This document shows positions 43,041 through 61,184 of a stretch of 64,000 bases of DNA, one piece after another (the stretch's first letter is position 1; each line of letters begins with the position of its first letter). The notes beneath the pieces are model-generated. The model worked only from the letters and a program-made list of their open reading frames with translations. It did no database searches and was not told the DNA's origin. A program made the position numbers and the translations under genes. This DNA is from Roseimicrobium sp. ORNL1 (GTDB lineage Bacteria; Verrucomicrobiota; Verrucomicrobiia; Verrucomicrobiales; Verrucomicrobiaceae), in contig NZ_CP049143.1 of the NCBI RefSeq assembly GCF_011044495.1, positions 434,001 through 498,000 on the forward strand, in the 5' to 3' direction.

Positions 43041-44075
43041 GTGCAAGTACCATGGTCCATCAAGCTCGCGCGGGCGCTCTTTCTGACGCTCGCCGTCGTG
43101 CTTGGCGGTGCCGTCGCCGCAGGCTTTCATGCGGAGATCTGGATTGGCACCCTGATTGGCCTCGTTGTGGGTGGTTTCTTCGTGCTGGTGGATGCGCTGC
43201 TGGCCCAGTTCACCTTCCGTGAATTTTCCTTTGGGACCTTTGGACTTCTGGTGGGGTTGTTCTGCGCGTGGCTGGTGACGAAGATCGGCATCATGGACCT
43301 TCCGTGGTTCCGCAGTCTGGAAGATCCAGACTCCATCCGTAGCGTGGTGGAGATCTGCATGTATCTGATCTTTGGCTTTCTCGGCATCACCCTCGCGCTC
43401 CGGAGTGACCGGGATCAGTTTTCCTTCATCATCCCCTACGTGCGCTTCCGCAGGGACGCCTCCGAAGGTGAGCCCATGTTGCTTGATACCAATGTGATCA
43501 TCGACGGGCGCATCCCCCAGGTTTATGAGACGGGCTTCCTCTCGGGAAATCTGGTCATCCCCCGGTTTGTTCTCGATGAACTGCAGCGCATGGCGGATTC
43601 ACGAGATCCCCTCAAGAGCTCGCGTGGGAAGCGAGGCTTGGATGCTGTGCAGAAGCTCCGAGACACGAAAGGGATTGAACTCACGGTGCATGAAGCTCCC
43701 GGCAATCATGAGGGCGCAGCGGTGGACACACTGCTGGTTACGCTGGCTCATGAGCTGAATGCCCGACTCCTCACCAACGACGTGAATCTCGGGAAGGTCG
43801 CCCGGGTGAAAAACGTGACCGTGCTGAACTTCAATGATCTTGCCAGGGCGCTTCAGCCGGAAGTCGGAGCCGGGGACGAACTGGACATCAGTCTCGTGAA
43901 GTCAGGCAAGGAGAAGCATCAGGCGGTTGGCTACCTGCCGGACGGAGCCATGATTGTGGTGAACTACGCCTCCCAATTCATCGGGGACACCGTCGCCATT
44001 GTGGTGAGTGGCGTGACGCACACCTCCGCTGGCCGGCTTATTTTCGCCGACTTGAAACAGGCGCGGGCTCAGTAG
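43041..44075 (+). CDS. YacL-like membrane PIN/TRAM-domain protein
   Basis: From the GTG at 43041 the 344-residue protein has about four membrane segments (to about residue 125), then a PIN nuclease fold (MLLDTNVIIDGRIPQVYETGFLSGNLVIPRFVLDELQRMAD, GLDAVQKLRD, GAAVDTLLVTLAHELNARLLTNDVNLGKVARVKNVTVLNFNDLA) with the expected acidic residues. A C-terminal TRAM domain follows (ELDISLVKSGKEKHQAVGYLPDGAMIVVNYASQFIGDTVAIVVSGVTHTSAGRLIFAD). This is the YacL/PilT-TRAM family of membrane-bound putative RNases. A TTG at 43014 is an alternative start. Its last 38 bases overlap a convergent gene. Confidence 0.85.
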   Translation: MQVPWSIKLARALFLTLAVVLGGAVAAGFHAEIWIGTLIGLVVGGFFVLVDALLAQFTFREFSFGTFGLLVGLFCAWLVTKIGIMDLPWFRSLEDPDSIRSVVEICMYLIFGFLGITLALRSDRDQFSFIIPYVRFRRDASEGEPMLLDTNVIIDGRIPQVYETGFLSGNLVIPRFVLDELQRMADSRDPLKSSRGKRGLDAVQKLRDTKGIELTVHEAPGNHEGAAVDTLLVTLAHELNARLLTNDVNLGKVARVKNVTVLNFNDLARALQPEVGAGDELDISLVKSGKEKHQAVGYLPDGAMIVVNYASQFIGDTVAIVVSGVTHTSAGRLIFADLKQARAQ

Positions 44076-44505
44076 GCGGAGTCGGCACACCCGCCTTGTG
44101 GGAGCGCACGGTGATTTCGCGTTGGGTCAGGTCGCGTAGGATGGAAATCACTTGAGGGCGCAGACGGTTGAACTCCTCGCGCTGTTCCGGGTTGAGTTCA
44201 CGGGCGATTTCCTCGTGGGTTTCCTGTGCCACGTTGACGATGCGCTCATAGGATTCGCCCCCGATGTCGCGGATGTGCATGTCAGCGCTTTCCACGATGG
44301 GGCGGATGCGCTGCTTCTGCTCGGGAGTGATTTTGAGGCGGCGCTCCAAGTCGGCGAGCCGGGCGTTCACCCACTTTTCTTGGGGTGGGGTACGGGAGAA
44401 GATACGCTGCAGCGCCACCACGGTGCCGATGGCACCGGTGCCCACGCCCGCGCCGAAGATGGCCATGAGGCCGAGTACCATTTTCCAATGACGGAAGAGT
44501 CTCAT
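44038..44505 (-). CDS. Membrane-anchored CpxP/Spy-like periplasmic protein of the sigma operon
   Basis: The 155-residue protein has an N-terminal membrane anchor (about residues 8-28) and a helical domain with ARLADLERRLKITPEQKQRIRPIVESADMHI, then ELNPEQREEFNRLRPQVI. The helix-loop-helix with two TPEQ/NPEQ-type motifs is the LTxxQ pattern of Spy/CpxP and of the heavy-metal sensor family, periplasmic proteins that sense or buffer misfolded envelope proteins. It ends the sigma factor operon (44813-44502 overlaps it by four bases), so it may act as a stress sensor. The tail is Pro-rich. It overlaps the convergent YacL-like gene by 38 bases. Confidence 0.7.
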   Translation of the reverse strand: MRLFRHWKMVLGLMAIFGAGVGTGAIGTVVALQRIFSRTPPQEKWVNARLADLERRLKITPEQKQRIRPIVESADMHIRDIGGESYERIVNVAQETHEEIARELNPEQREEFNRLRPQVISILRDLTQREITVRSHKAGVPTPPTEPAPVSSRRK

Positions 44506-44813
44506 AGCGTCAGCAGCGAATCAATCCAACCTCCCGCAAGTGCCGTCTCGCCCGTGAAGATGCCGAACAGCGTGTCATAGCTGAGTGCAGCGCTTCCCAG
44601 CAGGATGACTACCGCCACGGCTACTCCGCGAAGGGCCAGCCATTCCAGCAGGGCGAACGAAGCCTCGCGTGGATGGGATTTCCACTGGGCCACCACCCGT
44701 GTGGCAAATCCGAGCGGAGCTTCCGCAGCTGGCTGGACAGCAGGCGAGGTACTCGCACGGGCCGCGAGGCGCGGCCAGGCACGGTCAGCAGGATCGTGAG
44801 GGTGGCGGTTCAT
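44502..44813 (-). CDS. Hypothetical one-pass membrane protein in a sigma factor operon, possible anti-sigma factor
   Basis: The 103-residue protein has a cytosolic Pro/Ala-rich N-terminus, one membrane segment (about residues 66-87, RGVAVAVVILLGSAALSY) and a short outer tail. Its start overlaps the sigma factor stop by four bases (ATGA) and its own stop overlaps the next start by four. Translation of the three genes is thus coupled. In ECF loci a single-pass membrane protein next to the sigma factor is usually an anti-sigma factor, but I see no zinc-binding anti-sigma motif. Confidence 0.6.
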   Translation of the reverse strand: MNRHPHDPADRAWPRLAARASTSPAVQPAAEAPLGFATRVVAQWKSHPREASFALLEWLALRGVAVAVVILLGSAALSYDTLFGIFTGETALAGGWIDSLLTL

Positions 44814-45421
44814 GTGGCGGGAGAGGGGGAATAGGTAGCATCGAGTGCGGCGAAGGCCTTGCGCAGTTTACGCCGTGCCCGGAAGGCGCGCACCTTTACA
44901 AGCGTGGCACTCCATCCGGTGGCGGCCTGGACGTCGGCGACGGAGCGGCCTTCCATGTCCATCATGGTTAGTACGAGACGATCGGCGGGTTTCAGCGTTT
45001 CGAGAAGTTTGCTGGCCAGTTCGCGTGCACCCACGGCATCAGCGGCACCGCTGTCCGTTTCATCATGCAGGACGTGATCGAGCATCTCCGCCTCGTTTTC
45101 GCTCAGGTCGGCCCAGCGCAGTTCGGGCCGCCGTTTTTGGTGGCGCAGGGCGTCCAGGCACGTGGTGACTGCCACACGGGAAACCCAGTGCTCAAAGGGC
45201 ATTTGTGCGCGCCATTGCTCAATGCGGGCAAACATTTTCATGAACACCTCCTGCGCGAGATCCTCTTCGCTGCTGCGCCGGGGGAGGTGGGCCCGCACGA
45301 TGCGCAGCACCAGCGGGTAGAGACGCTCCACGAGCGTGGTGGCCGAGCGTTCACAACGGTCATCGCGCACCCTTGCCACCAGGTCGGTAAGATCGGGGCT
45401 GGAGGCGGGAGGGACGGACAT
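44810..45421 (-). CDS. ECF sigma-70 factor
   Basis: The 203-residue protein has region 2 (RLYPLVLRIVRAHLPRRSSEEDLAQEVFMKMFARIEQWRAQMPFEHWVSRVAVTTCLDALRHQKRRPE) and region 4 (LETLKPADRLVLTMMDMEGRSVADVQAATGWSATLVKVRAFRARRKLRKAF), the two-domain layout of ECF sigma factors. It would direct RNA polymerase to a small regulon, probably of envelope-stress genes, given its two coupled neighbours downstream. Candidate promoter motifs are not clear in 45422-45531. Confidence 0.9.
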   Translation of the reverse strand: MSVPPASSPDLTDLVARVRDDRCERSATTLVERLYPLVLRIVRAHLPRRSSEEDLAQEVFMKMFARIEQWRAQMPFEHWVSRVAVTTCLDALRHQKRRPELRWADLSENEAEMLDHVLHDETDSGAADAVGARELASKLLETLKPADRLVLTMMDMEGRSVADVQAATGWSATLVKVRAFRARRKLRKAFAALDATYSPSPAT

Positions 45422-47440: not shown

Positions 47441-50400
47441 ATGCCTTACCTGGCCTTCAACCTCAACAACGGCAATGAGTTCATCTTCGATCTCGAGGAT
47501 GCGCGTCTTTCGCTGGGTCGGAACAGTCGTAACGAAATCGTCATCGACAGTTCCCAAATCTCCAGTTTCCACGCGGAATTGTTGCGACGTCCCGACGGAA
47601 ATTACGAGGTGGTCGACCTGAAATCGTCCAACGGGACCTTTGTGAACGGCAAGCGTGTCGAGCGCGCGGTGCTGCGCCAGGGAGACAAAGTCCGCTTTGG
47701 CGGACTTGAAGCCAAGTTCAAGGATTCCGCCGACACGGAGCCCAGCAACGGCCATCCCAAGAGCAGCGGCAAGTCGGTCGAGGAAAAGAAGCGCGAGGCG
47801 GAACGGAGCGGTACCCCCGAGTCCAAGACGGAAGCGGTACAGCTCAAGGAACGTGTGGCCCCGCAGATGAGGAATGGCGGCGGCAGGCCTGCACAGCACA
47901 TGGCTTCGACGGCTACCAGCGCGGTGCCAGTGCTGCGTGACAGCAAGGCGCCTTTCCCCGCACCCACTCCCTCGCCTGCGCCGCGGTCGGGCCCTTCCGG
48001 CAGCTCGCGTGGCAGAAGTGATGATGAACCGATTGTCACTGCTCCCATTGCCTTTGGACCGAGCGATTCATCTCTCGCCATGGCGCCGCCCAGCGGCCTG
48101 AGCGATGCGCCCCTGACGTTTGCCGCACCGCAAGGGCTGTCCATGATGCCGCCGCCGGCATCGATTTCCGCAACTCCACCCCCCGCAGCCCCTGTAGAGC
48201 CGCCACGCCCTGAGCTGGCGCCACCGGCACGCGGAAGAGCGCCGTCTTATGGGAACGGCAACGGCACGGAAGTGCCGCCGCAGCAACAACCGGCCTCTTT
48301 CAAGTCCGCAGGTGGACGGCAGGCAGCACCTTCCACTGCTACCAGTGCCGTGCCCACACTCAAATCCACGCGCTCGGTGCGTGTGGGTCCCGGGGCTATG
48401 GGCTTCAAGCCGCCGCAGCTTCAGTCGCTGGATCGGAGCACCGAGCCGGGCGCCCCTGAGGCTCCCCCTTCTGCTTCTCTTCCGCCTCCTCCCGCCGCGG
48501 CTCGAGGTGGTAATAAGAATGGTGGCAGGCCCGCGCACTCCATGATGGAGACCAGTGCCGTGCCGACCCTGAAGGCTACCCGTGGTGTTCGCGTCGGAAT
48601 GGCGGCGATGCCATCGGCCTTTGCCAGTCCCCCCGTGCAGGGCATGCCTCCCGTGGCGCCCGTCGAGATGCCGCCACCGGCACCTGCTCCAGCTCCGGCT
48701 CCGCCGCCCGTTCAGCAGGCTCCCCTGCCTCCGGGACCGGTGCCCATGCCTCCGCCTGCGCCTGCGCCAGCAGCTCCGGCCGTGGACAATCCGGCTGGGG
48801 TGAATGTCCAGCCGCTCATGCTGGATGCGCCCCAAAGCCTCATGGCACCGCCGCTCCCTCCGGGCTCGCTGGCCTCAGGCTCGGGCTTGGAAAGCCCTGA
48901 GATTTCGCAAGCCGGGACTGATGAGTTTTCTCGTGGCAGGATGCAGCAGGCCGTGGCAGAGCTGTCTGCCGTGCAGGCCCAGATCGCCGAGAACCGGGCG
49001 GCGGAAATGCGCACGCGCGAACGTGCGGGCCGTGAAGGCCAGGAAGCGGAGGAGTATCTCGCCAAGCTGAGCCGTGACATTCGTGAGGCGGAAGAACGGC
49101 TCGCCGCGTTGACGCGCGATGCCTCTTCGCGCGAGAGCAACGATGCCGCACTGGCCGCTGCCGCGTCCACTCGAGTGGACGAGCTCAACAGATCGCTGGG
49201 TACGATGCAGACGCGCCAGAAGGATCTGGAGTCGAACATTGCCGGTCTCTTCACCGAGCGCACTTCGCGCGAAAAGGATCTGGAAGAGGTCAATGCCCGC
49301 CTGGCTGCTGCCCGCGAGGAAGTGGAAGCTGCGAAGAGACTGCAGCAGGCCGTTGCCGATCAGACTCGTGAAGCCGAGGCCCGCCTGCGCGAAGCGGCGA
49401 GCAAGGCGGACCAGTCGCAGGAAGCCCACGGCATGACCGCGGAGCGCGTGCGCACCTTGCAGGCCGAACTGACGGCTGCCCAGGAACGCATGCAAACCAT
49501 GCGCAGCGAGGCGGAGCAGGCATCCAGAGCTTTGGACGATCGCAAGGCGGCCACGGAGGCAGTCATCGCCCAGCGCGAAGAGCATCTGCGCGCGCTGGAC
49601 ATGCGTGTGGCCGAGCATGAGGCCAAGCGGAACGCCGCAGAGACGCGACTTGTGGAACTCGCCGGTACCGACAACCGGCTTGCTTCTGCCAATGAAGCTC
49701 TCAAGCTGATTCAGGAGCAGCAGACCGCCACGGAAGTGGCTCTCGCGCGCCTGCGGACCCAGCAGGAGCAGGAACGCTTGGAAATGACCCAGACGGCCGA
49801 GAAGCTGGCTTCTGTAGTCGCCCAGTACACGAACGCCACTGCGCAGGCCGAGGAAGCGCAAAAGCAACTTGCCGAGCACGAGGCGAAGCTGGCTGGCGCC
49901 AGGGATGCGATTGCTCAAGTGGAAGCTGCGGCCGCAGCCCGGCAGGCGGAGTTGGATAGAGCGTTTGCCGAAAGGCAGGCTGCGATGGAAAAGGCCAGCG
50001 CGGAACGTCAGCAGCAGGTCAGTGAAGCGGAAGAGCGCACCCGGTCGTTGGAGGGCGTGTTTGCCGGACTCACCGGACGCATCAACGAACTTCGCGAACT
50101 GGAAAAGGTACTGGTGGAAACCAGGCCGCGGCTTGAGGCAGTGGAAGCCCGCCGCAACGAAGCCGAGGCCTCGCTGACTGCACTCTCCGCACAGGTGCAC
50201 GACCGCACTCGCGAACTCAGCGAGGTGGCGGCCCGTGTGGGCGCGCAGGAAAACGCGCTGAAGGAGATGGCGGCCAGCGAACAGCAAATGCAGGCAAACC
50301 TGCAGGCCATTCGCAAGGAAAGCGATGCCGAGCGGGCTCGTTTCGAAGAGTTGCGCGCCACGACTGCGGCCGGGGAAAAGGCCCTGGGCGGACGTCGCGC

Positions 50401-53254
50401 CGAACTGGAGCGCATGGTGGCGGACATGGAGAGCTCCGCACTGTCCTCCAAGGAGCGACTGGAGCAGCTGCGTCGGCAGGAGGAGGAAGTCATGCGGAAG
50501 CTTGGCGATCTCTCCACCACAGACTCGAAACTTCAGGATGCAGCCAAGGCGCTTCAAGTGGTCGAGGAACAACGCACACGCATCCAGGAGCAGATTATCG
50601 CTTTGGGAGCGCAGCGTGAGGAGCGCGAGCAGGAGATCTCCGCCACTGCGGAAAAGGGCGCCGCCCAGCACTTGCTGGTGCTGACGCTTTCCCGTCAGCG
50701 TGCCGGTCTCGAAGAGAACGTGACCGAGCTCACCGGTGCCGCTGAAAAAGCCCGCAAGCTGCTTGCGGATACGGAAGCCAAGAGAACCGAGATGGAGGCC
50801 AAGCTCACCGCCCGCACGGGTGAAGCTGAAAAGGCACTCGCCGAGATGGAGAAGAAGGTGGCTTCGGAGAAGAAGGCCTTCGAAGAATTCAAGACCAAGC
50901 GCGAGGAGATCGACAAGCAGCTTGCTTCGCTGAAGGACACAGAGAGCAAGATCGCTTCTGCGCGCGACATGCTCACTGCGACCAACAAGGGCCAGCAGGA
51001 AGCCGAGGCGAAACTCAAGCAAACGCTGGAAAACGTCACCGCGGAGCAGGCTCGCTTGGAATCACTGGCAGGCAAGGGCGCAGAGATGCAGCGCTCGATT
51101 GATGCTCACAAGCAGCAGCAGGATTTCCTTCAGGAGAACATCACCAAACTCTCGAACGATTCCAACGCGCAGCTGGCAATCATCGCGAAGAACCAGGCTG
51201 CGGCAGCAGAGTCGGCCCGTGTGCTCGGACTCAAGCAGACCGAACTCTCGAACGTGGAAGATCAGCTCGCCATCGCTTCTCGGAAGCGTTTGGATCTTGA
51301 GAACCAGATTGCTGAGTTCCGGGATCTTGAGCAGAAAATCGCCGCCGCGCGCGAAGGCTTTGCCGCACTGGAGCGCCAGACGGGAGAAGAACAGCAGAAA
51401 CTGGCTGCCGCCGCGCATGAAAAGACCCAGACCGAACAGGCGCTCGCCGCGGTGAGGCTGGAGATGGAAGGCCAGCGGACGCAACTGGACGCCCTACGCC
51501 AGCAGCAGGAACAGGCGAAGCGCGAGATCGAAGTCGCGAAGCAGCTTGCCGAGGCGGAGAACAATCGTGCTGTCGGTATCCGCGACGAGATGGCGCAGGT
51601 GGGCGCTGCAATCGCTGCGCGTCAGGCAGAGGTGGTTGCCACGGAAAAGAAACTGGAGGCGGTGCAGGCCAAGCTCGTGCCGGCGGAGAAGCGTTTCGCC
51701 GACCTGCAAGATTTGGAAAACCGGGTGCGCGAAGCCCAGGCGGCTTTGAAGGCGACCGAGAAGCTGCGTGGCAACGAGGAAAAGAACATCGCAGAACTCG
51801 AGAAGCAGCGTGAAAAGCTGCGTCGCGACATCGCCGGGCTTACCACGCAGGAGAAAGCAGACCGCGCCAAGGCGGACGAGCAGGCCAATCGTGCCAAGTT
51901 GGAAGAGGCCCGGGCGGTGGAAGCGGAGAAGAAGCGCGAGCAGGTCATCGTTGCCATCCAGCAGGTGGATGCGAAGCGCGCCGAGATCGAAAGCCGGATT
52001 CTCGCTGCGCAGGAAGAGGAAAAGGCCGTGCGCTCCGGCATCCCCGCCGTCACTGCGGAAATGGCAAAGTTGCGCGAGGAACTTCAGGCATTGCAGACCG
52101 AGCGTGTCCGCGAGGAGTCGAAGGTCAAGATGCTTACCGACGAGTCCAACGCTGCGGCGATGCGATTCGAAGCAGCAGCCGCGAAGTGCGCCGCAGTGGA
52201 CAAGGATCGCATTGCCATCGAGCAGGCCATCGCGGGACTGCGCGAGCAACAGGAGCAGGGCGCTGTACGACTTGCCTCCCTCAAGGTGGAGGAGGAGGAA
52301 TTGCAGACCAGCACTGCCGCGGCCCGCGCCCGCCACGACGAGCGGGAGGCTGCTTTTGCTGCCCGTCTTGGCGAGATGGAGAAGGCGCACGAACATCTTC
52401 GCCAGCAGGAGGAGGCCGTGGTCAATTCCATGAACGCCACCCGCCAGCAGCTGCAGGAAGAGGAAGCTGCGGGCGAAACCCTGCGGCAGAAGTTCGCTGC
52501 CGCTGAGGCGCGCTACTCAGAACTGGTTCGCTCGGGTGAGAAGATTATCTCCATCAATGAGGCCCTGGAGCTTGCGGACGAACGCAGGCGTGAGATGAAT
52601 CGTAACCTGGCCAGCCTGGCTGAACAGGAACTCGCGCTGCAAGTCCGTTTCAACGCCCTGGATGAGAACATCAAGCGTGACACGCGCCGTGAGGAAGAAG
52701 TCCGCCGCGAACGCGAACAGGCCGAGGAACAGAACCGCCAGACGATGGAACGCCTTCGCGGTGAGTTCGAAGGGATGAAGCAGATGTTCGGCGACCAGCT
52801 CAAGCGTGAAGAGACTGCGCTGGCTTCCCGGATGAAGGAGCGCATCGCGGACATGCAGCAGAAGCATGACATCCTTTCGCGAGGCCTTTCTGCCGCCACC
52901 GACGAGCAGACAGTCATCCTGTTTGCCAACGATCTTATCAAACGGCTGGACCTTCTCGACATCCTCATCCAGCGCTACACTGGCTCTGGGCAGGATGGCG
53001 TGGAGCAGCAGCTCCGCACGTTGAGGGCTTCCTTTGAAGATATTCTTTCCCAGCATGGCATCGCCGAGTTCCGCGTGGATACGGGAACAGAGGTCGATGT
53101 GGCTCTGCGTCAGCGCATTGCCGTGGTGGAGAACGTAACCGGTGAGCAGCGGCCCCGTGTCGTGGAGAGCTACCGCCCCGGTTTCGTCTATTCTCCTGAT
53201 GGTTCAAGGGAGATGATACTTCGCAAGGTAGAGGTTAAGACTTCGAGCGAATAA
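47441..53254 (+). CDS. Giant FHA - coiled-coil - GrpE-like fusion protein (1937 residues)
   Basis: The N-terminus (about 1-95) is an FHA domain, shown by LSLGRNSRNEIVID, SSFHAEL and DLKSSNGTFVNG; FHA domains bind phosphothreonine. Residues about 100-490 are a Pro/Ala-rich linker in which TSAVPxLxxT-type motifs recur near residues 159, 301 and 371. Residues about 500-1800 are charged coiled coil (Ala/Glu/Gln/Arg-rich) with an L-x3-[DEG]-x-[KR]-[LIV] landmark at 740, 884, 1024, 1164, 1293, 1422 and 1695. The last 120 residues follow GrpE: NDLIKRLDLLDILIQRY, LRASFEDILSQHGIAEFRV, IAVVENV and then PGFVYS, ILRKVEVK, which align with E. coli GrpE (FGVEVI, IAMVES, KGYTLN, IRAAMVTV). The gene for an Hsp70 starts 73 bases later, so nucleotide exchange on that Hsp70 is likely. 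It may tether chaperone activity to a phosphorylated target. Confidence 0.85.
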   Translation: MPYLAFNLNNGNEFIFDLEDARLSLGRNSRNEIVIDSSQISSFHAELLRRPDGNYEVVDLKSSNGTFVNGKRVERAVLRQGDKVRFGGLEAKFKDSADTEPSNGHPKSSGKSVEEKKREAERSGTPESKTEAVQLKERVAPQMRNGGGRPAQHMASTATSAVPVLRDSKAPFPAPTPSPAPRSGPSGSSRGRSDDEPIVTAPIAFGPSDSSLAMAPPSGLSDAPLTFAAPQGLSMMPPPASISATPPPAAPVEPPRPELAPPARGRAPSYGNGNGTEVPPQQQPASFKSAGGRQAAPSTATSAVPTLKSTRSVRVGPGAMGFKPPQLQSLDRSTEPGAPEAPPSASLPPPPAAARGGNKNGGRPAHSMMETSAVPTLKATRGVRVGMAAMPSAFASPPVQGMPPVAPVEMPPPAPAPAPAPPPVQQAPLPPGPVPMPPPAPAPAAPAVDNPAGVNVQPLMLDAPQSLMAPPLPPGSLASGSGLESPEISQAGTDEFSRGRMQQAVAELSAVQAQIAENRAAEMRTRERAGREGQEAEEYLAKLSRDIREAEERLAALTRDASSRESNDAALAAAASTRVDELNRSLGTMQTRQKDLESNIAGLFTERTSREKDLEEVNARLAAAREEVEAAKRLQQAVADQTREAEARLREAASKADQSQEAHGMTAERVRTLQAELTAAQERMQTMRSEAEQASRALDDRKAATEAVIAQREEHLRALDMRVAEHEAKRNAAETRLVELAGTDNRLASANEALKLIQEQQTATEVALARLRTQQEQERLEMTQTAEKLASVVAQYTNATAQAEEAQKQLAEHEAKLAGARDAIAQVEAAAAARQAELDRAFAERQAAMEKASAERQQQVSEAEERTRSLEGVFAGLTGRINELRELEKVLVETRPRLEAVEARRNEAEASLTALSAQVHDRTRELSEVAARVGAQENALKEMAASEQQMQANLQAIRKESDAERARFEELRATTAAGEKALGGRRAELERMVADMESSALSSKERLEQLRRQEEEVMRKLGDLSTTDSKLQDAAKALQVVEEQRTRIQEQIIALGAQREEREQEISATAEKGAAQHLLVLTLSRQRAGLEENVTELTGAAEKARKLLADTEAKRTEMEAKLTARTGEAEKALAEMEKKVASEKKAFEEFKTKREEIDKQLASLKDTESKIASARDMLTATNKGQQEAEAKLKQTLENVTAEQARLESLAGKGAEMQRSIDAHKQQQDFLQENITKLSNDSNAQLAIIAKNQAAAAESARVLGLKQTELSNVEDQLAIASRKRLDLENQIAEFRDLEQKIAAAREGFAALERQTGEEQQKLAAAAHEKTQTEQALAAVRLEMEGQRTQLDALRQQQEQAKREIEVAKQLAEAENNRAVGIRDEMAQVGAAIAARQAEVVATEKKLEAVQAKLVPAEKRFADLQDLENRVREAQAALKATEKLRGNEEKNIAELEKQREKLRRDIAGLTTQEKADRAKADEQANRAKLEEARAVEAEKKREQVIVAIQQVDAKRAEIESRILAAQEEEKAVRSGIPAVTAEMAKLREELQALQTERVREESKVKMLTDESNAAAMRFEAAAAKCAAVDKDRIAIEQAIAGLREQQEQGAVRLASLKVEEEELQTSTAAARARHDEREAAFAARLGEMEKAHEHLRQQEEAVVNSMNATRQQLQEEEAAGETLRQKFAAAEARYSELVRSGEKIISINEALELADERRREMNRNLASLAEQELALQVRFNALDENIKRDTRREEEVRREREQAEEQNRQTMERLRGEFEGMKQMFGDQLKREETALASRMKERIADMQQKHDILSRGLSAATDEQTVILFANDLIKRLDLLDILIQRYTGSGQDGVEQQLRTLRASFEDILSQHGIAEFRVDTGTEVDVALRQRIAVVENVTGEQRPRVVESYRPGFVYSPDGSREMILRKVEVKTSSE

Positions 53255-53327
53255 TGGCTCATACTGCTTCGGTCGCTTGTCTTGATCTGCGAATCCTGCT
53301 AAGGATCTTCAGTTCAACCCTCGAATC

Positions 53328-54815
53328 ATGGCAGAATTTGTCGGCATCGACCTCGGCACCACTCTGTCCGGTCTGGCTTATCTAAAGCCGGATGGACATC
53401 CTGAAATCGTCCCCAATGCGGATGGAGAACGACTGACACCGTCAGTCGTCTACTTCGACGCGCATGAAGACGTGAAGTTAGTGGGCAGTGCCGCGCGCGA
53501 TGGCGGCGATCCCGACCGCACGATCTACCAGATCAAGCGGCACATGGACGATCCTGAACACTTCGTGGAGATTGACGGCAAGAAGTGGACGCCGGCTGAG
53601 ATTTCCGCGCTCATCCTGAGCAAGCTCAAGCGGGAATGCTCGCGCATCGTGGGTGACATCAAGGAAGCCGTGATCACCGTGCCTGCGAACTTCAATGAGC
53701 TGGCGCGCAAGAGCACCATCGCCGCCAGTGAGATGGCCGGCATGAAGGTGCGTCGCCTGGTGAATGAACCCACGGCTGCGGCGGTGTATTATGCCCACGG
53801 CCAGGGCGTGCGCGGAAAAGTGCTCGTGTTTGACATGGGCGGTGGCACGCTGGACGTGACCATCCTTGAGGTGGACGGCGAGAGCTTCCGCATCATGACG
53901 AGTGAAGGCGCCCGCCACCTTGGGGGTTCAAATATCGATGAGCAACTTCTGGATCTCTACGCGGATCAGTATCGCGAGCAGACCAATTCAGAGCTCTTCT
54001 CGGATGAACGCCAGCGCCGCCGTGTGCTGCACGCTGCCGAGGATGCGAAGAAGATGCTGAGCAAGCTGCAGCGCGTGAATGACACCATCGGCAACGATGT
54101 GAATGGCATTGCACGCATCGACTTCACCCGGGATCAGTTTGAGAAGCTCGTGGCGAAGCTGCTCACGCGCGCCATCATGCTGGTGGAGCAGGCGCTGGCT
54201 GGCGTGAATCTCACGCCCAAGGATATTGATCACGTGGTGCTCGTGGGTGGTTCCACCCGCATTCCGAAAGTGAAAGTCGCGCTGGAGCGATTCTTCGGCA
54301 AGGCGCCCAAGTCTTGCGGCAACGTGGATGAAGCTGTGGCCCTCGGTGCAGCGCTCTTTGCGAGGAAGTCCGCGCGTGTGCGTGAAGTTTGCAATGCCAG
54401 CTATGGCACGCTTGCCTACGTCGTGAATCAGACGACGGGCGAGGAAGGGGTGCGTAACTCCATCGTCATTCCGAAGAATACGCCGATTCCCTGCTCCCAC
54501 ACGCAGGTCTACATCACCTCTGATCCGAATGAGCGCTTCATCGAGGTGGATATCACGCAGGGTGAAGATGATGATCCCCGCTTCGTGGACGTCATCGGCA
54601 AGATCACCCTGGAAGTGCCGGCGAACCGCCCTGCCGGATGCGAGGTGGCCGTGACCTACAGCTACGATGAAAACCAGCGCGTGCGCGCCCTCGTGGTGGA
54701 CAAGGAGAGCGGACGTTCCCAGGAAATCGCCGTGACCTACAAGGGCGCCGGCATCCTCACGGATGAGGAACTGGAAAACCGCGGTACCATGCTCCGCAAA
54801 CTGCGCATTGAGTAG
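53328..54815 (+). CDS. Hsp70-family protein without the alpha-helical lid
   Basis: The 495-residue protein has the Hsp70 ATPase domain (about residues 1-365): GIDLGTTLSGLAYL, DIKEAVITVPANFNELARKSTIAASEMAGMKVRRLVNEPTAAAVYY, VFDMGGGTLDVTILEV, LGGSNIDEQLLDLY and DHVVLVGGSTRIPKVKVALERFFGKAP. A shorter C-terminal part (about 390-495) corresponds to the substrate-binding beta sandwich. DnaK is about 640 residues; the helical lid is absent here and the linker does not show the DVLLLDV-type motif. It is not the housekeeping DnaK. It follows the GrpE-fused giant protein by 73 bases and precedes a small protein by 36 bases, in an apparent operon. Confidence 0.9.
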   Translation: MAEFVGIDLGTTLSGLAYLKPDGHPEIVPNADGERLTPSVVYFDAHEDVKLVGSAARDGGDPDRTIYQIKRHMDDPEHFVEIDGKKWTPAEISALILSKLKRECSRIVGDIKEAVITVPANFNELARKSTIAASEMAGMKVRRLVNEPTAAAVYYAHGQGVRGKVLVFDMGGGTLDVTILEVDGESFRIMTSEGARHLGGSNIDEQLLDLYADQYREQTNSELFSDERQRRRVLHAAEDAKKMLSKLQRVNDTIGNDVNGIARIDFTRDQFEKLVAKLLTRAIMLVEQALAGVNLTPKDIDHVVLVGGSTRIPKVKVALERFFGKAPKSCGNVDEAVALGAALFARKSARVREVCNASYGTLAYVVNQTTGEEGVRNSIVIPKNTPIPCSHTQVYITSDPNERFIEVDITQGEDDDPRFVDVIGKITLEVPANRPAGCEVAVTYSYDENQRVRALVVDKESGRSQEIAVTYKGAGILTDEELENRGTMLRKLRIE

Positions 54816-54851
54816 CGAGACCTTTCTGAAACCCCCGTCGTCATCGCCATC

Positions 54852-55319
54852 ATGTTCGAGAAGCTCAAGACCATCTTCAAAACCAAGGATGCTCCCGCAG
54901 GCAAGCCGCCACAGTCACGTGGCAGCAGCAACGGAGACAGCGTCCTTTCGAAAGTGACCAGCGTGGGCCGTGAGAAAGAGGCCCGTGGTCCCGTGCCTCT
55001 GGCTCCAACAGAAGGCGCAGCGAAACCAGCTCCCGCCGCAGCCGCTACGCCTGCCCCTGCACCCGCAGCGGCCCCAGCGCCGGCGCAGCGCCAGCCGATT
55101 CAACCCAAAGCGCCTGCCCAACCACAGGGTCCGAGCCCGGAAGAGATCTGCGGTGTCACCGCGAAGATGAGCAAGGACGAAGTCCGCACACGCCTCGCCT
55201 TCCTCTACAAGCGCTACAACCGCGCCACCAGCAGCCTCAACGCCAAGCTCCGTGCCGAGGCGAATGAAATGCTGGATGCCGTGGTCGCCGTGCGGGAGAA
55301 GGTGTTCGGGCCGATTTGA
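54852..55319 (+). CDS. Small Pro/Ala-rich protein with a C-terminal helical, possibly J-like domain
   Basis: The 155-residue protein begins with a basic MFEKLKTIFKTKDAPAGK segment, continues with about 70 residues of Ala/Pro-rich low complexity, and ends with a compact helical domain (about 95-155) reading PEEICGVTAKMSKDEVRTRLAFLYKRYNRATSSLNAKLRAEANEMLDAVVAVREKVFG. The layout (short helix, GVTAKMSKDEVRTRLAFLYKRYN, loop, long helix) is reminiscent of a J domain, with the HPD turn replaced by NRA. Because it follows an Hsp70 gene by 36 bases, a co-chaperone role is a reasonable guess. No family is recognised with certainty. Confidence 0.55.
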   Translation: MFEKLKTIFKTKDAPAGKPPQSRGSSNGDSVLSKVTSVGREKEARGPVPLAPTEGAAKPAPAAAATPAPAPAAAPAPAQRQPIQPKAPAQPQGPSPEEICGVTAKMSKDEVRTRLAFLYKRYNRATSSLNAKLRAEANEMLDAVVAVREKVFGPI

Positions 55320-55577: not shown

Positions 55578-58500
55578 ATGCCACGTTTTCTGCTCTTCGC
55601 GCTCCTGAGCGCTGTCGCAAGCCTCTCTTTTGGCCAGGCGCCACAAGAGAAGCTCGCGGGATATGTTCTCCCGCTAGATCCCTTCTGGCCCGACCGTGAT
55701 TCTCCCAAGCTCACCACGCCGGAGTGGATTGGCGAAGCAGGCGTGGACGCTGCGATCACGATCTCCATCGATGACATGCGGGACACGGCGAAGTACGAGG
55801 CCTTCATCCGCCCCATTTTGGAGAAGCTGAAGGAGGTCAGTGGAGGACGTGCGCCTTTTAGCATCTTCACGTGTGAGGTGCCGCCGGATGATCCGCAGCT
55901 TCAGGCGTGGCTGAAGGAAGGGGTGAGCATGGAGGTGCACACGCTGAAGCATCCCTGCCCGCTGCTGCAGAAGGGTGACTTTGCGGCAGCGAAGGCGACG
56001 GTGGATGGCTGCATTGACCTGCTCAGTCAGATTCCCGGGGGCAAGCCGGTGTGTTATCGCATGCCGTGCTGCGACTCCATGAACAGCCCGAGTCCGCGGT
56101 TCTACGCAGAGATCTTCCACAAGATGACGCCTGCGGGGAATGCGCTGTCCCTGGACTCCTCCGTGGCATGCATCCTGACCAGCAAGGACAAGTCCATGCC
56201 ACGTGAGTTGACGATGGATGCGCAGGGTCGTGAGCGCTTCTGGAAGTATTACAATCCCCAGCCCGCGAATGCGGTGAAGTCCATGCAGAACTTCGGGACC
56301 TATATCGAGGACTACCCCTACCCGTATGTGATTGGCGAGCGCTGCTGGGAACTGCCCATCGCCATGCCGAGTGACTGGCTGGCGCAGAATTTCCAGGGGA
56401 AGAACAACGACGCGACCGTGGGCGATTGGAAGGCCGCGCTCGATATCATTGTGCTCAAGAAGGGCACGATGAACCTGTGCATTCATCCGCACGGCTGGAT
56501 CCAGGCGTCGCAGATGGTGGAGTTCATCCAGTACGCGCACGAGAAGTATGGGAAGAAAGTCCGCTTCCTCAGCCTGAAGGAGGCGGCGCACAAGCTCGCG
56601 AAGCTGGACATCAACAAGCATCGGCCTCAGCCGCCCAAAATTCCGGAGGCTCCGCTTCCGGACGGGGTGAAGCTCATGGATGCCCAGGGACGCGACAACG
56701 GAGTGCGCTTCGTGGACCTCAACGGAGATGGTCACGACGACATCGTCTTCTCCAATGCCGAGCGCTATGGCGTGTACATCTACAATCCCACGGAGAAGAA
56801 GAACGTGGACTGGCGCGTGGGGTGGACGTTCACCATGCGCGAAGGCAAGGCGGGCGATGCCAACTCCATCCCGCAGATCGTGCGTGCGGATGGCACGAAC
56901 AACGGCGTGTGGTTCAAGCACGGGTCCATGTGGGTGCAGAACGAAGACACAGACAAGCTGCCGGGAGTCGTGCGGCGCATCACGTACGAGCAACTCCTCA
57001 AACAACCAGGGCCACCGACGCGCAGTCCGGAGGAATCACTGAGTTCGCTTCGGGTGAAGAAGGGTTTCGTGGCGGAGTTGGTGGCGAAGGAGCCGATGGT
57101 ACAGGATCCCATCTTCATCGATTGGGACGAGCGGGGCCGCATGTGGGTGGTGGAGATGGCGGACTATCCGCTGGGCATGGATGGCCAGGGCAAGCCGGGT
57201 GGCCGTATCAAGATCCTGGAGGACACGAATCGTGATGGTGTGTATGACAAGGTCTCGCTGTTCCTTGATGAACTGCAGCATCCCACGGGACTGGCCCCGT
57301 GGAAGAATGGCATCTTTGCCCTCGCAGGTGGTGAAATCTTCTTTGCTGCGGACACGAATGGGGATGGCAAAGCGGATGTGCGCGAGACGTGGTACATCGG
57401 CTTCAACAAGGGAAACTCGCAGCACCTGGCGAATGGACTCTGCTGGGGACTGGACGGTTGGTTCTACGGAGCGAATGGAGACAGCGGTGGCAAGATTCAA
57501 TCCGTGAAAGGTGGCGGAGTGTTTGATTTGAGCGGCCGCGACTTCCGGTTCAATCCCGTCACGCGCGAATTCCAGCTTCAGCCGGGCAAAACTCAATGTG
57601 GCCGCTGGCGCGATGACTACGGCAACTGGTTCGGCTCCAACAACAGCTCCATGGGCTGGCACTATTTCATGGATGAGGGTTACCTCGCGCGGAATCCGAA
57701 GCTGGCGGTGCCGACCTTGCGTCGTGTGATGAACACACGGGAGGACAATAAGCGCGTATTCCCCGTGGCCGCGCAGATGCGCCGCTACAACTGGCCGGAT
57801 GCGGTGAACACGCTGACCTCGGCGTGCAATGCCATGCCGTATCGCGACACCGTGTTCGGTGAAGTCTATCGTGGCTCCATCTTCGTCTGCGAGCCGGCGA
57901 ACAATCTCGTGCATCGCGAAGTGCTGGAGCCGGAGGGTATCAGCTTCACCGGCCATCGTGCGGATGATGAGAAAGACGCGGAATTCCTCGCCAGTGAGGA
58001 TCCGTGGTTCCGTCCTACGATGGCGCGCACCGGTCCGGATGGCTGCCTCTACGTGGTGGACATGTATCGTCTGGTGCTGGAGCACCCGGAATGGATTCCC
58101 AAGGAGATGCAGGCGCACATGGATCTGCGCGCAGGTGAGGACAAGGGGAGGATCTACCGCATCCGTCCAGAGAGCTTGGAGAAGGAAAGGGTCTCTTTTC
58201 CGTGGAGAGGGGAGGACGGGCTGGAGTGGGACCCAAGCAGCAATGTCACCCTGATCTACCATCTGGGTGGCAGCAGTGGCTGGAAGGCGGACACGGCGCA
58301 GCGATTGCTGATCGAGCGCGGCGCCAGCGAAGCTGCTCCCATCGCTTCCGGCATGGTGGAGGGCTCTGCGGAAGACCCCCCTCCCTTTCCAGACGTGGTG
58401 AACGTGCGCGCGCTCTGGACGCTTCATACCTTGAAGGAGCTCAAGCCCGAGGATCTGGAGTTTGCGCTGAAGTCCTCCCAGCCGCTCACGCGTGCGCACG

Positions 58501-59270
58501 CGGTGAAGCTGAGCGAGGGACATCTCGGTGAGGAGGCGGTGCTGGCACAAGTCATCAAGCTCGCCGAGGATGCGGATATTCGCGTGCGTGTGCAGGTGGC
58601 GCTCACGCTGGGCGAATCTTCCAATGCCCGTGTTCCGGCAGTGCTGCGGGCACTCGCCAAGCGTGACGAAGGGAACAAGGACATGCTCACGGCCCTCCTG
58701 ACCGCCGTGCCCAAGCATGAAAAGGCACTCGAAGCGGATATCAAAACCTGGCAGGCAGCACTCAAGGCGGATGTGAAACGAGCGGCCGCACCGGCGCCCA
58801 TCATCCTCACCAATGCCAACCCGGATCGTGAGAAGGTGGTGAAACACTATGCCGGTGCCGCGCAACTCACTGGCAACCCGACCACCGGGCATGCGCTGTA
58901 CACGAATGTCTGTTCAGGATGCCACCGCTTGAAGAATGAAGGCACCGAGATTGGACCGGATCTGGGCGCAGTGGCGGCAAAGCCGATGGAGCAACTCATC
59001 GAGGCCATCATGGATCCGAACCGAGCTGTGGAGGCACGCTTCACCACGCAGACCATCACCACGAAGCAGGGGCGCGAGGTTATCGGTCTCGTGACGGAGG
59101 AAACGCCCAATAGCATCACCGTGCGCACGGCTGGAGGTCTGGAGACGATCCTGCGTGCGGATATCACCCGGCAGAACGGCAACACCAAGTCCCTGATGCC
59201 CGATGGTCTCGAAATGTTGCTGACTCCGCAACATGTGGCTGACATCCTGTCCTACATCCGGCAAAAGTAG
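55578..59270 (+). CDS. Secreted deacetylase / FG-GAP / PVC-type dehydrogenase-cytochrome c fusion (1230 residues)
   Basis: A signal peptide (about 1-19) is followed by a polysaccharide-deacetylase-like domain (about 25-330: AITISIDDMRD, FTCEVPPDDPQLQAWLKEGVSMEVHTLKHP, NLCIHPHGWI). FG-GAP/VCBS segments (about 361-470: GRDNGVRFVDLNGDGHDDIVFSNAERYGVYIYNP) and a beta-propeller dehydrogenase of the planctomycete/verrucomicrobial membrane-bound type (about 490-900: MWVVEMADYPLGMDGQGKPGGRIKILEDTNRDGVYDK) follow. HEAT-like helices (about 940-1070) and a PVC-type heme-binding domain with CSGCH at Cys1112 close the protein. It probably oxidises or processes sugars outside the cell, with electrons leaving by the heme. 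The deacetylase fusion is unusual. Confidence 0.85.
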   Translation: MPRFLLFALLSAVASLSFGQAPQEKLAGYVLPLDPFWPDRDSPKLTTPEWIGEAGVDAAITISIDDMRDTAKYEAFIRPILEKLKEVSGGRAPFSIFTCEVPPDDPQLQAWLKEGVSMEVHTLKHPCPLLQKGDFAAAKATVDGCIDLLSQIPGGKPVCYRMPCCDSMNSPSPRFYAEIFHKMTPAGNALSLDSSVACILTSKDKSMPRELTMDAQGRERFWKYYNPQPANAVKSMQNFGTYIEDYPYPYVIGERCWELPIAMPSDWLAQNFQGKNNDATVGDWKAALDIIVLKKGTMNLCIHPHGWIQASQMVEFIQYAHEKYGKKVRFLSLKEAAHKLAKLDINKHRPQPPKIPEAPLPDGVKLMDAQGRDNGVRFVDLNGDGHDDIVFSNAERYGVYIYNPTEKKNVDWRVGWTFTMREGKAGDANSIPQIVRADGTNNGVWFKHGSMWVQNEDTDKLPGVVRRITYEQLLKQPGPPTRSPEESLSSLRVKKGFVAELVAKEPMVQDPIFIDWDERGRMWVVEMADYPLGMDGQGKPGGRIKILEDTNRDGVYDKVSLFLDELQHPTGLAPWKNGIFALAGGEIFFAADTNGDGKADVRETWYIGFNKGNSQHLANGLCWGLDGWFYGANGDSGGKIQSVKGGGVFDLSGRDFRFNPVTREFQLQPGKTQCGRWRDDYGNWFGSNNSSMGWHYFMDEGYLARNPKLAVPTLRRVMNTREDNKRVFPVAAQMRRYNWPDAVNTLTSACNAMPYRDTVFGEVYRGSIFVCEPANNLVHREVLEPEGISFTGHRADDEKDAEFLASEDPWFRPTMARTGPDGCLYVVDMYRLVLEHPEWIPKEMQAHMDLRAGEDKGRIYRIRPESLEKERVSFPWRGEDGLEWDPSSNVTLIYHLGGSSGWKADTAQRLLIERGASEAAPIASGMVEGSAEDPPPFPDVVNVRALWTLHTLKELKPEDLEFALKSSQPLTRAHAVKLSEGHLGEEAVLAQVIKLAEDADIRVRVQVALTLGESSNARVPAVLRALAKRDEGNKDMLTALLTAVPKHEKALEADIKTWQAALKADVKRAAAPAPIILTNANPDREKVVKHYAGAAQLTGNPTTGHALYTNVCSGCHRLKNEGTEIGPDLGAVAAKPMEQLIEAIMDPNRAVEARFTTQTITTKQGREVIGLVTEETPNSITVRTAGGLETILRADITRQNGNTKSLMPDGLEMLLTPQHVADILSYIRQK

Positions 59271-60012: not shown

Positions 60013-60333
60013 ATGAGTACCGTGACCCGAAAAAAGCGTTACAGCAGTGATTTTAAAACCCATGCCGTGGAGTTGGTCCGCATGGGCAAGAGTGTGTCCG
60101 AGGTGGCTGAAGAACTCGGCATTGGCACTGGCATCCTTTACCGTTGGACCCGGTCCCAAAGGCAGCCGGTGCAGCTCGTAGGCGCAGACCTCCGAGCCGG
60201 AGGCGAGGAGGGCGAAGCCAACGAGCTGCACCGGCTGCGGCGTGAAATCGCCAACCTGCGTCTGGAGAACGACATTTTAAAAAAGGCCGCTGTCATCCTG
60301 GGCACGCCACAACCGTCCAAACCCGCGAAATGA
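60013..60333 (+). CDS. IS3-family OrfA (helix-turn-helix DNA-binding protein)
   Basis: The 106-residue protein has the IS3 OrfA pattern: RKKRYSSDFKTHAVELVRMGKSVSEVAEELGIGTGILYRWTRSQ (helix-turn-helix) and a C-terminal leucine-zipper-like ELHRLRREIANLRLENDILKKAAVILG. It binds the terminal inverted repeats. It overlaps orfB by four bases (ATGA), and the run A-AAA-AAG at 60279-60285 is a typical -1 frameshift site, after which the frame is open into orfB. Confidence 0.9.
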   Translation: MSTVTRKKRYSSDFKTHAVELVRMGKSVSEVAEELGIGTGILYRWTRSQRQPVQLVGADLRAGGEEGEANELHRLRREIANLRLENDILKKAAVILGTPQPSKPAK

Positions 60334-61184
60334 TCCTGCAACTCCAGCGCCAGACCGGTGGGAGTGTACGCAAGATCTGCGACGTCCTGGAGCTGCCCCG
60401 CAGCAGCTTTTACCATGTGGCGAAGTCTGCCTCCAGCCATGAGCAAGACGCTCGTCTGGGTGAACTCATCGAGGAGATCTTCAAACGCAACCGGCACCGC
60501 TATGGCTACCGCAGGATCCATGAGGAACTGCGCGACCATGGCATCGTGTGTGCACCCTCCAAGCTGCGCCGCATCCTCAAAACACGGGGCCTCAAGGCCA
60601 TCCAACCCAAGAACTACCTGCCCAAAACCAGCGATGGCCGGGCAGACCGTCCCTCTGCCAATCTGTTGGCCCAGCAGCCTGTGCCGCAGAAGCCCGGCGA
60701 GGCCTGGGTCGCAGACATCACCTTCATTCCCACTACGGCAAACTGGCTCTATCTGGCCGTGGTCATGGATTTGGGCTCGCGTCGCATTGTGGGCTGGAGT
60801 CTGGCGTCACACATGCGTGCAGAACTCGTCGTCCACGCCTTGGAACAAGCCCTGCAAACCCATCCCAAAGCCAGCGGCATTGTCTTCCACAGCGACCGGG
60901 GCAGCCAGTATGGCAGCACGGCCTTCCGTTCCGTGCTCACGCGTGCCGGCCTGCGCCAGAGCATGTCGGGGCGAGCCAACCCCTATGACAATGCGTGGAC
61001 AGAGTCCTTCATGGGTACCCTCAAGCGCGAGATGCTTCAAGGAGGCCGCTTTGAAGACCTCACCGATGCACGACTGGAACTCTTTGAGTACATCGAGGGC
61101 TACTACAACAACCAGCGCAAGCACTCCGCCATCGGTTACCTCACCCCCAATCAGTTTGAGACCCAATCCAGAAACCTAAACTAA
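60330..61184 (+). CDS. IS3-family OrfB, DDE transposase catalytic domain
   Basis: The 284-residue protein contains the IS3 HTH_21 segment (HRYGYRRIHEELRDHGIVCAPSKLRRILKTRGL) and the rve/DDE core with Asp129 (WVADITFI), Asp189 (FHSDRGSQY) and Glu225 (AWTESFMGTLKREM), giving a D-35-E spacing characteristic of the retroviral integrase-type family. C-terminal YYNNQRKHSAIGYLTPNQFE is also typical. Intact, so the element could be active. Translation probably couples to orfA through the overlapping ATGA or uses a -1 shift. Confidence 0.95.
   Translation: MILQLQRQTGGSVRKICDVLELPRSSFYHVAKSASSHEQDARLGELIEEIFKRNRHRYGYRRIHEELRDHGIVCAPSKLRRILKTRGLKAIQPKNYLPKTSDGRADRPSANLLAQQPVPQKPGEAWVADITFIPTTANWLYLAVVMDLGSRRIVGWSLASHMRAELVVHALEQALQTHPKASGIVFHSDRGSQYGSTAFRSVLTRAGLRQSMSGRANPYDNAWTESFMGTLKREMLQGGRFEDLTDARLELFEYIEGYYNNQRKHSAIGYLTPNQFETQSRNLN

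Follow-up and report, generated by a model that had tools for sequence, protein, structure and literature searches.

J proteins are well known to control where Hsp70 acts; we know of no case in which a nucleotide-exchange factor that forms part of a giant scaffold exerts such control. In the canonical GrpE dimer, long paired helices contact the nucleotide-binding domain (NBD) and the substrate-binding domain (SBD) of DnaK, and the wing and short helices open the NBD (PMC10803776; PMC11685456). Dedicated HSP70-GrpE-DnaJ cassettes have been described in GAP1-N2 GTPase systems (PMC7159879, eLife 2020). Here we report an undescribed operon, found in one order of Verrucomicrobia, that encodes a giant protein with an FHA head, a rod and a GrpE-like end, a lid-less Hsp70 and a small partner protein.

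The window analyzed is a stretch of 64,000 nucleotides from the genome of Roseimicrobium sp. ORNL1. Within it, three genes follow one another on the plus strand: the giant protein gene (47441..53254, 1937 aa), the Hsp70 gene (53328..54815, 495 aa) and the small gene (54852..55319, 155 aa). The open reading frames (ORFs) are separated by 73 and 36 bases, and on re-checking, the strand, coordinates and gaps given in the original prediction all proved exact. No CIRCE element was found within the window when up to three mismatches were allowed, and heat-shock control through CIRCE was dropped as a candidate on this ground. Ten neighboring genes were annotated with Pfam as NDK, DUF7133/cytochrome c, TPR, integrase core, PIN, sigma factor, LTXXQ, MlaD and Gcw_chp, with one giving no match. 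On the minus strand, positions 44038-45421 hold a sigma-70-like factor gene, a small ORF and an LTXXQ-motif (CpxP/Spy-like) protein, which together look like an ECF envelope-stress module. Directly downstream of the three genes, a 1230-aa protein with DUF7133, HEAT repeats and cytochrome c is encoded on the plus strand (55578-59270), and a transposase-like integrase-core protein with HTH_21 lies close by (60330-61184, plus strand).

The giant protein begins with an FHA domain (residues 24-87, 47510..47701; Pfam E 8.7e-20), placing this domain at the end of the protein where it had been predicted. Conserved Arg, Ser and Asn residues of FHA domains bind phosphothreonine peptides, and the corresponding positions are retained in homologs of the giant: R27 in 40/40, S41 in 39/40 and N64 in 36/40. 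A Pro/Ala/Ser/Gly-rich linker, probably disordered judging by its composition, covers about residues 101-490 (47741..48910); proline makes up 21% and alanine 15% of residues 101-500. The region of about residues 501-1814 (48941..52882) has hydrophobic residues recurring every 3.50 positions when 501-1815 are analyzed (peak power 9.2, mean 0.16), a sharp periodicity that marks a coiled coil. It is rich in Ala, Glu, Arg, Leu and Gln and has three prolines in about 1300 residues, in agreement with the length of coiled coil originally proposed. If it forms one continuous helix (0.1485 nm per residue), the rod would be about 195 nm long. A scan for internal repeats gave top diagonal scores of 72, compared with null maxima of 51-63, and a motif recurs near residues 744, 1028, 1168 and 1426; regular repeats were ruled out, as these recurrences are irregularly spaced. 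The protein was also predicted to be filament-like, which it may be; what the data give is a long coiled coil and no polymer.

A Pfam scan of the whole 1937-aa protein misses GrpE, and the C-terminal domain (residues 1810-1937, 128 aa; 52868..53251) must be isolated for the similarity to appear. The isolated domain matches PF01025 with E=2e-5 and 24.8 bits, just under the curated cut-off of 25.8, and 27/33 homologs match the same profile, the best with E 3.9e-9. In a profile-profile comparison (hhalign), 108 columns that take in the C-terminal strand align with a profile of 26 canonical GrpEs of this phylum at a probability of 94.6% (E 7.2e-8), compared with 0.5% for a sequence-reversed control. 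An AlphaFold model of the domain (pLDDT 88.6) comprises the end of a long helix, a helix pair and a six-stranded beta wing. When this model was searched against the PDB with Foldseek, the nine top matches were all GrpE or GrpEL1 (best E 2.6e-5) with noise below them, and GrpE likewise headed the VIA-align list (Z 12.8). The GrpE fold of the C-terminus, which the original prediction had set as one of its points to check, is borne out by these profile and structure comparisons. The canonical signatures NxRKR, in the long helix, and FDPxxHEA, in the wing, are absent from the giant's homologs, so that "GrpE-like" is the proper name for the domain. Its wing retains the GrpE-like C-terminal strand and is conserved at ~60-70% identity. 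Judged from profiles and the predicted structure, the C-terminus of the giant is a GrpE homolog with a GrpE fold. One copy of a separate, canonical GrpE is encoded in the same genome.

The second gene encodes an Hsp70 that matches its Pfam profile with E 2.9e-99 over positions 2-508 of 599. The match includes SBD-beta, and positions 509-599 are missing; the lid is therefore absent, as had been read from the sequence. Orthologs are 495-540 aa long. Positions were numbered against E. coli DnaK. None of the ATP-site residues D8, T11, K70, E171, D194 and T199 varies among the 39 orthologs compared, and R167, N170 and the G32 loop are retained as well. In the M. tuberculosis complex, the main chain of the DnaK G32 loop touches GrpE (PMC10803776). 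The interdomain linker DVLLLD is replaced by a conserved E-V-C-N-x-S in nearly all orthologs. In a phylogenetic tree, the Hsp70s of this system make up a single clade (100/100 support) with a long stem, separate from DnaK and the other Hsp70 paralogs. Within the clade, families mostly group together, the pattern expected under vertical inheritance.

The small third protein has a variable, Pro/Ala-containing N-terminal half and a strongly conserved C-terminal domain of 61 residues (55134..55316), to which the matches within the family are confined. AlphaFold models this domain as three helices (pLDDT 82.5). J domains are the top Foldseek matches to the model, at a weak E=0.39, and VIA-align against J domains gives a Z of 6.3, equal to that of other helical hairpins. 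The HPD motif occurs in 0/37 orthologs, Pfam returns no DnaJ match at E<=1, and hhalign against J domains reaches a probability of 6%; we therefore do not name this a J protein, and the suggestion that it is J-like, raised in the original prediction, was abandoned. A TPR_10 match is also weak (E=0.0066, under its cut-off). The small protein probably serves as an adaptor or regulator, and not as a J protein of the classical, ATPase-stimulating kind. Elsewhere in the same genome, at about 6551742-6554772 (loci L062 and L064, with L054), a variant Hsp70 (568-aa ORF) is accompanied by two ORFs that match J domains weakly and have RPD in place of HPD.

Conservation of the locus was surveyed in 68 genomes of the family, whose named members include Verrucomicrobium, Prosthecobacter, Brevifollis and Phragmitibacter. 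A single-protein search of the named genomes gave no matches; an alignment-based scan gave 49 loci. Across the family sample, the GrpE-like end is present in 63 genomes, the Hsp70 in 57 and the third gene in 59. Conservation of the giant in 63/68 genomes, mostly as long ORFs, excludes a chance reading frame. Its orthologs measured in the family vary from 433 to 2166 residues between the FHA domain and the GrpE-like end, with both ends retained. The gene order had been put forward as a second point to check in relatives, and it is kept: in the 50 family genomes that have both giant and Hsp70 on a single contig, 27-238 bp separate them, and the Hsp70 adjoins the third gene in 55/55 genomes where the two share a contig. 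Every Hsp70-bearing genome of the family also has the third gene, and none of those sampled has the Hsp70 without the giant.

The order FHA...GrpE-like, Hsp70, third gene recurs at loci of two other families (f3 and f6). There, short versions of 276-574 aa have the same neighbors, which indicates that the long rod is not essential. In an evenly drawn sample of 142 genomes of the order, 61 have both the GrpE-like end and the Hsp70, 16 the GrpE-like end only, 8 the Hsp70 only and 57 neither; these counts ignore relatedness, and some of the 16 hold a diverged paralog alone. The third gene was found in 71 and the Hsp70 in 69 of these genomes, in almost identical sets, making the third gene the closest, near-obligate companion of the Hsp70. 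Lineages without the system are often small-genomed, such as the Akkermansia-like family f2 and reduced members of genus g9. In a sample of 388 genomes from the phylum, no giant was found outside the order; beyond the family, the search gave weak matches (E 1e-7 to 1e-4, ORFs of 214-321 aa), at least one of which, in genome G211, is a canonical GrpE that Pfam finds too. Two metagenome bins labeled Akkermansia muciniphila (L244 and L259) carry a giant of the Verrucomicrobiaceae type, and their labels are for this reason probably wrong.

Several genomes depart from the common arrangement. Three (G067, G059 and G066) have the giant and lack both the Hsp70 and the third gene; G067 is a single contig of 8.2 Mb rated 100% complete. 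The giants of G059 and G066 are short, and in both the GrpE-like end has diverged much further than the FHA domain, a pattern that, in these two genomes, is compatible with a relaxation of constraint once the partner had been lost; in G067, the GrpE-like end shows no visible divergence despite the missing Hsp70. Conversely, the Hsp70 and third gene of two f3 genomes (G073 and G117) lie beside an FHA-coil protein that has no GrpE end, several f4 genomes have the pair without any FHA-GrpE gene, and pair and giant are on different contigs in four genomes (G006, G007, G008 and G012). From these cases of giant alone, pair alone and split contigs, we conclude that the association of giant and Hsp70 is strong and not obligatory. 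Genome G085 has two pairs of Hsp70 and small protein (L184 and L185), with an FHA-GrpE-like gene upstream of L185 alone.

Related genes were also observed in other contexts. In genus g13, proteins of 190-196 aa (L164, L166 and L170) combine a hydrophobic N-terminal stretch with the same GrpE-like domain; the one at L164 closes a run made up of a CdaA-type cyclase, a GlmM-type phosphomutase and an AAA_26 gene and has no Hsp70 in its vicinity. The same genus has a second FHA-coil-GrpE-like paralog of 521-544 aa (L165:6588-9022, L168 and L171) followed by a gene of ~285 aa, whose copy at L165 has no Pfam match. At two further loci in Akkermansia-type genomes, L218:4100-8537 (minus strand, G075) and L219:6944-11279 (plus strand, G081), a GrpE-like gene (304-338 aa) stands directly upstream of two variant Hsp70s (561 and 557 aa) and of a gene of 900 aa. 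The comparable set at L220 consists of a GrpE-like protein of 266 aa, an Hsp70 of 537 aa and a 533-aa gene. These sets are apparently a separate, dedicated Hsp70-GrpE cassette of the phylum.

On balance, we lean towards a reading in which the three genes tether a dedicated Hsp70, with the FHA head anchoring the rod and the GrpE-like tip docking and recycling the chaperone. The head would bind a threonine-phosphorylated partner and so recruit the rod to wherever a Ser/Thr kinase dictates; the retained phosphothreonine-binding residues suggest a phosphoprotein as the attachment point of the rod. The helices of the GrpE-like domain are continuous with the giant's coil, of which a dimeric rod with two wings at its tip is the simplest reading. 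A parallel coiled-coil dimer would thus carry two GrpE-like domains at its far end, as if the helices of canonical GrpE had been stretched into the rod. The tip may dock onto the NBD of the adjacent Hsp70 and accelerate nucleotide exchange. With its ATPase site and beta substrate-binding domain, an altered linker and no lid, this Hsp70 would be expected to bind clients only briefly, and the small third protein could act with it as an adaptor or regulator. A more specific version, in which a kinase marks the site and a rod of up to ~0.2 micrometre concentrates the specialized Hsp70 at a distance through its exchange tip, seems to us less likely than not. If true, it would amount to a spatially organized Hsp70 machine or to a chaperone-driven cytoskeletal element. 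To our knowledge, such a phospho-addressed chaperone tether has no described bacterial counterpart.

Several observations count against tethering: the GrpE signatures are lost, there are giants without the Hsp70, pairs without the GrpE end and pairs on other contigs, and GrpE-like relatives occur without an Hsp70 neighbor. In addition, the genome's canonical GrpE could serve the system's Hsp70. The main rival holds that the GrpE-like domain is dead for exchange and serves only to dimerize or cap the coil, the Hsp70 and small protein being an independent pair that is merely co-transcribed. Loss of both signature motifs, the persistence of giants and of pairs without one another and the presence of domain relatives away from any Hsp70, such as that beside the CdaA-GlmM operon, speak for this account. 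We judge it less probable than tethering; against it, the operon stays tight in 50 family genomes and recurs in other families, the Hsp70 is never without the giant in the sampled family, and the wing, with its GrpE-like strand and ~60-70% identity, diverges most in two genomes that have no Hsp70.

Less probable still is that the giant is a structural rod, cytoskeletal or a spacer, for which the Hsp70, an actin-fold ATPase whose substrate domain is modified, acts as assembly chaperone or remodeler and the GrpE-like end as the site where assembly is regulated. A heptad-periodic coil of ~195 nm, a spread of 433-2166 residues between retained ends and an altered Hsp70 linker that suggests a specialized client would suit such a role; against it, filament formation is itself conjectural, and f3 and f6 make do with versions of 276-574 aa beside the same neighbors. 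That GAP1-N2 systems combine HSP70, GrpE and DnaJ-fused proteins (PMC7159879) raised the further thought of a conflict or defense system built on the same theme. We regard this as very improbable: Pfam finds no GTPase or effector among the ten neighboring genes, the system is near-universal in the family and its tree mostly tracks families. PADLOC gave no matches for the Hsp70 and the small protein, and its matches for the giant were long LmuB and JetC stretches overlapping the coil; defense was set aside as an assignment.

Tethering, the reading we prefer, would make this operon a concrete case in which to ask whether phosphorylation directs a dedicated chaperone to its place in bacteria. Nearly all sampled Verrucomicrobiaceae have the system, among them relatives of Prosthecobacter and Verrucomicrobium, groups with unusual cell shapes and cytoskeletal proteins. 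An Hsp70 with conserved changes of linker and lid, paired with a partner that has no HPD, also offers a natural case in which to ask what in the Hsp70 cycle is open to change.

Compared with known systems, the giant shares with crescentin and other long bacterial coiled-coil proteins a long heptad-periodic coil, and it is in coil periodicity that the likeness consists; the giant has in addition an FHA head and a GrpE-like tail. Like HscC, HscA and other specialized Hsp70s, the Hsp70 described here is a non-DnaK Hsp70 with dedicated partner genes. It differs from them in that its best match is DnaK-like and far below curated cut-offs, and in having its own clade, no lid and no HPD-bearing J partner, the comparison with HscC being indirect. 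The GrpE of the DnaK-DnaJ-GrpE system (PF01025) has the same fold as the giant's tip, with significant profile similarity, and here too an Hsp70 gene is adjacent; the tip differs in being fused to a giant FHA coil, in having lost NxRKR and FDPxxHEA and in coexisting with a second, canonical GrpE in the genome. The Akkermansia-type cassette of L218 and L219 has the same order, with a GrpE-like gene directly upstream of variant Hsp70s. Its GrpE-like protein is about 300-340 aa long, lacks a giant coil and gave no FHA match, and its two Hsp70s are longer (561 and 557 aa); the tree places these Hsp70s as sisters of the system's clade, with moderate support (94/88) and on long branches. GAP1-N2 cassettes likewise keep a dedicated Hsp70 with its own GrpE outside the dnaK operon, whereas here the GrpE is the tip of a coil, the neighbors scanned include no GTPase and the third protein has no HPD. 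Dedicated Hsp70-GrpE cassettes are already known; in line with the original prediction, we found no description of the giant's domain architecture in the open-licence literature. What is novel is the fusion of a GrpE-like domain to an FHA domain and a giant coil.
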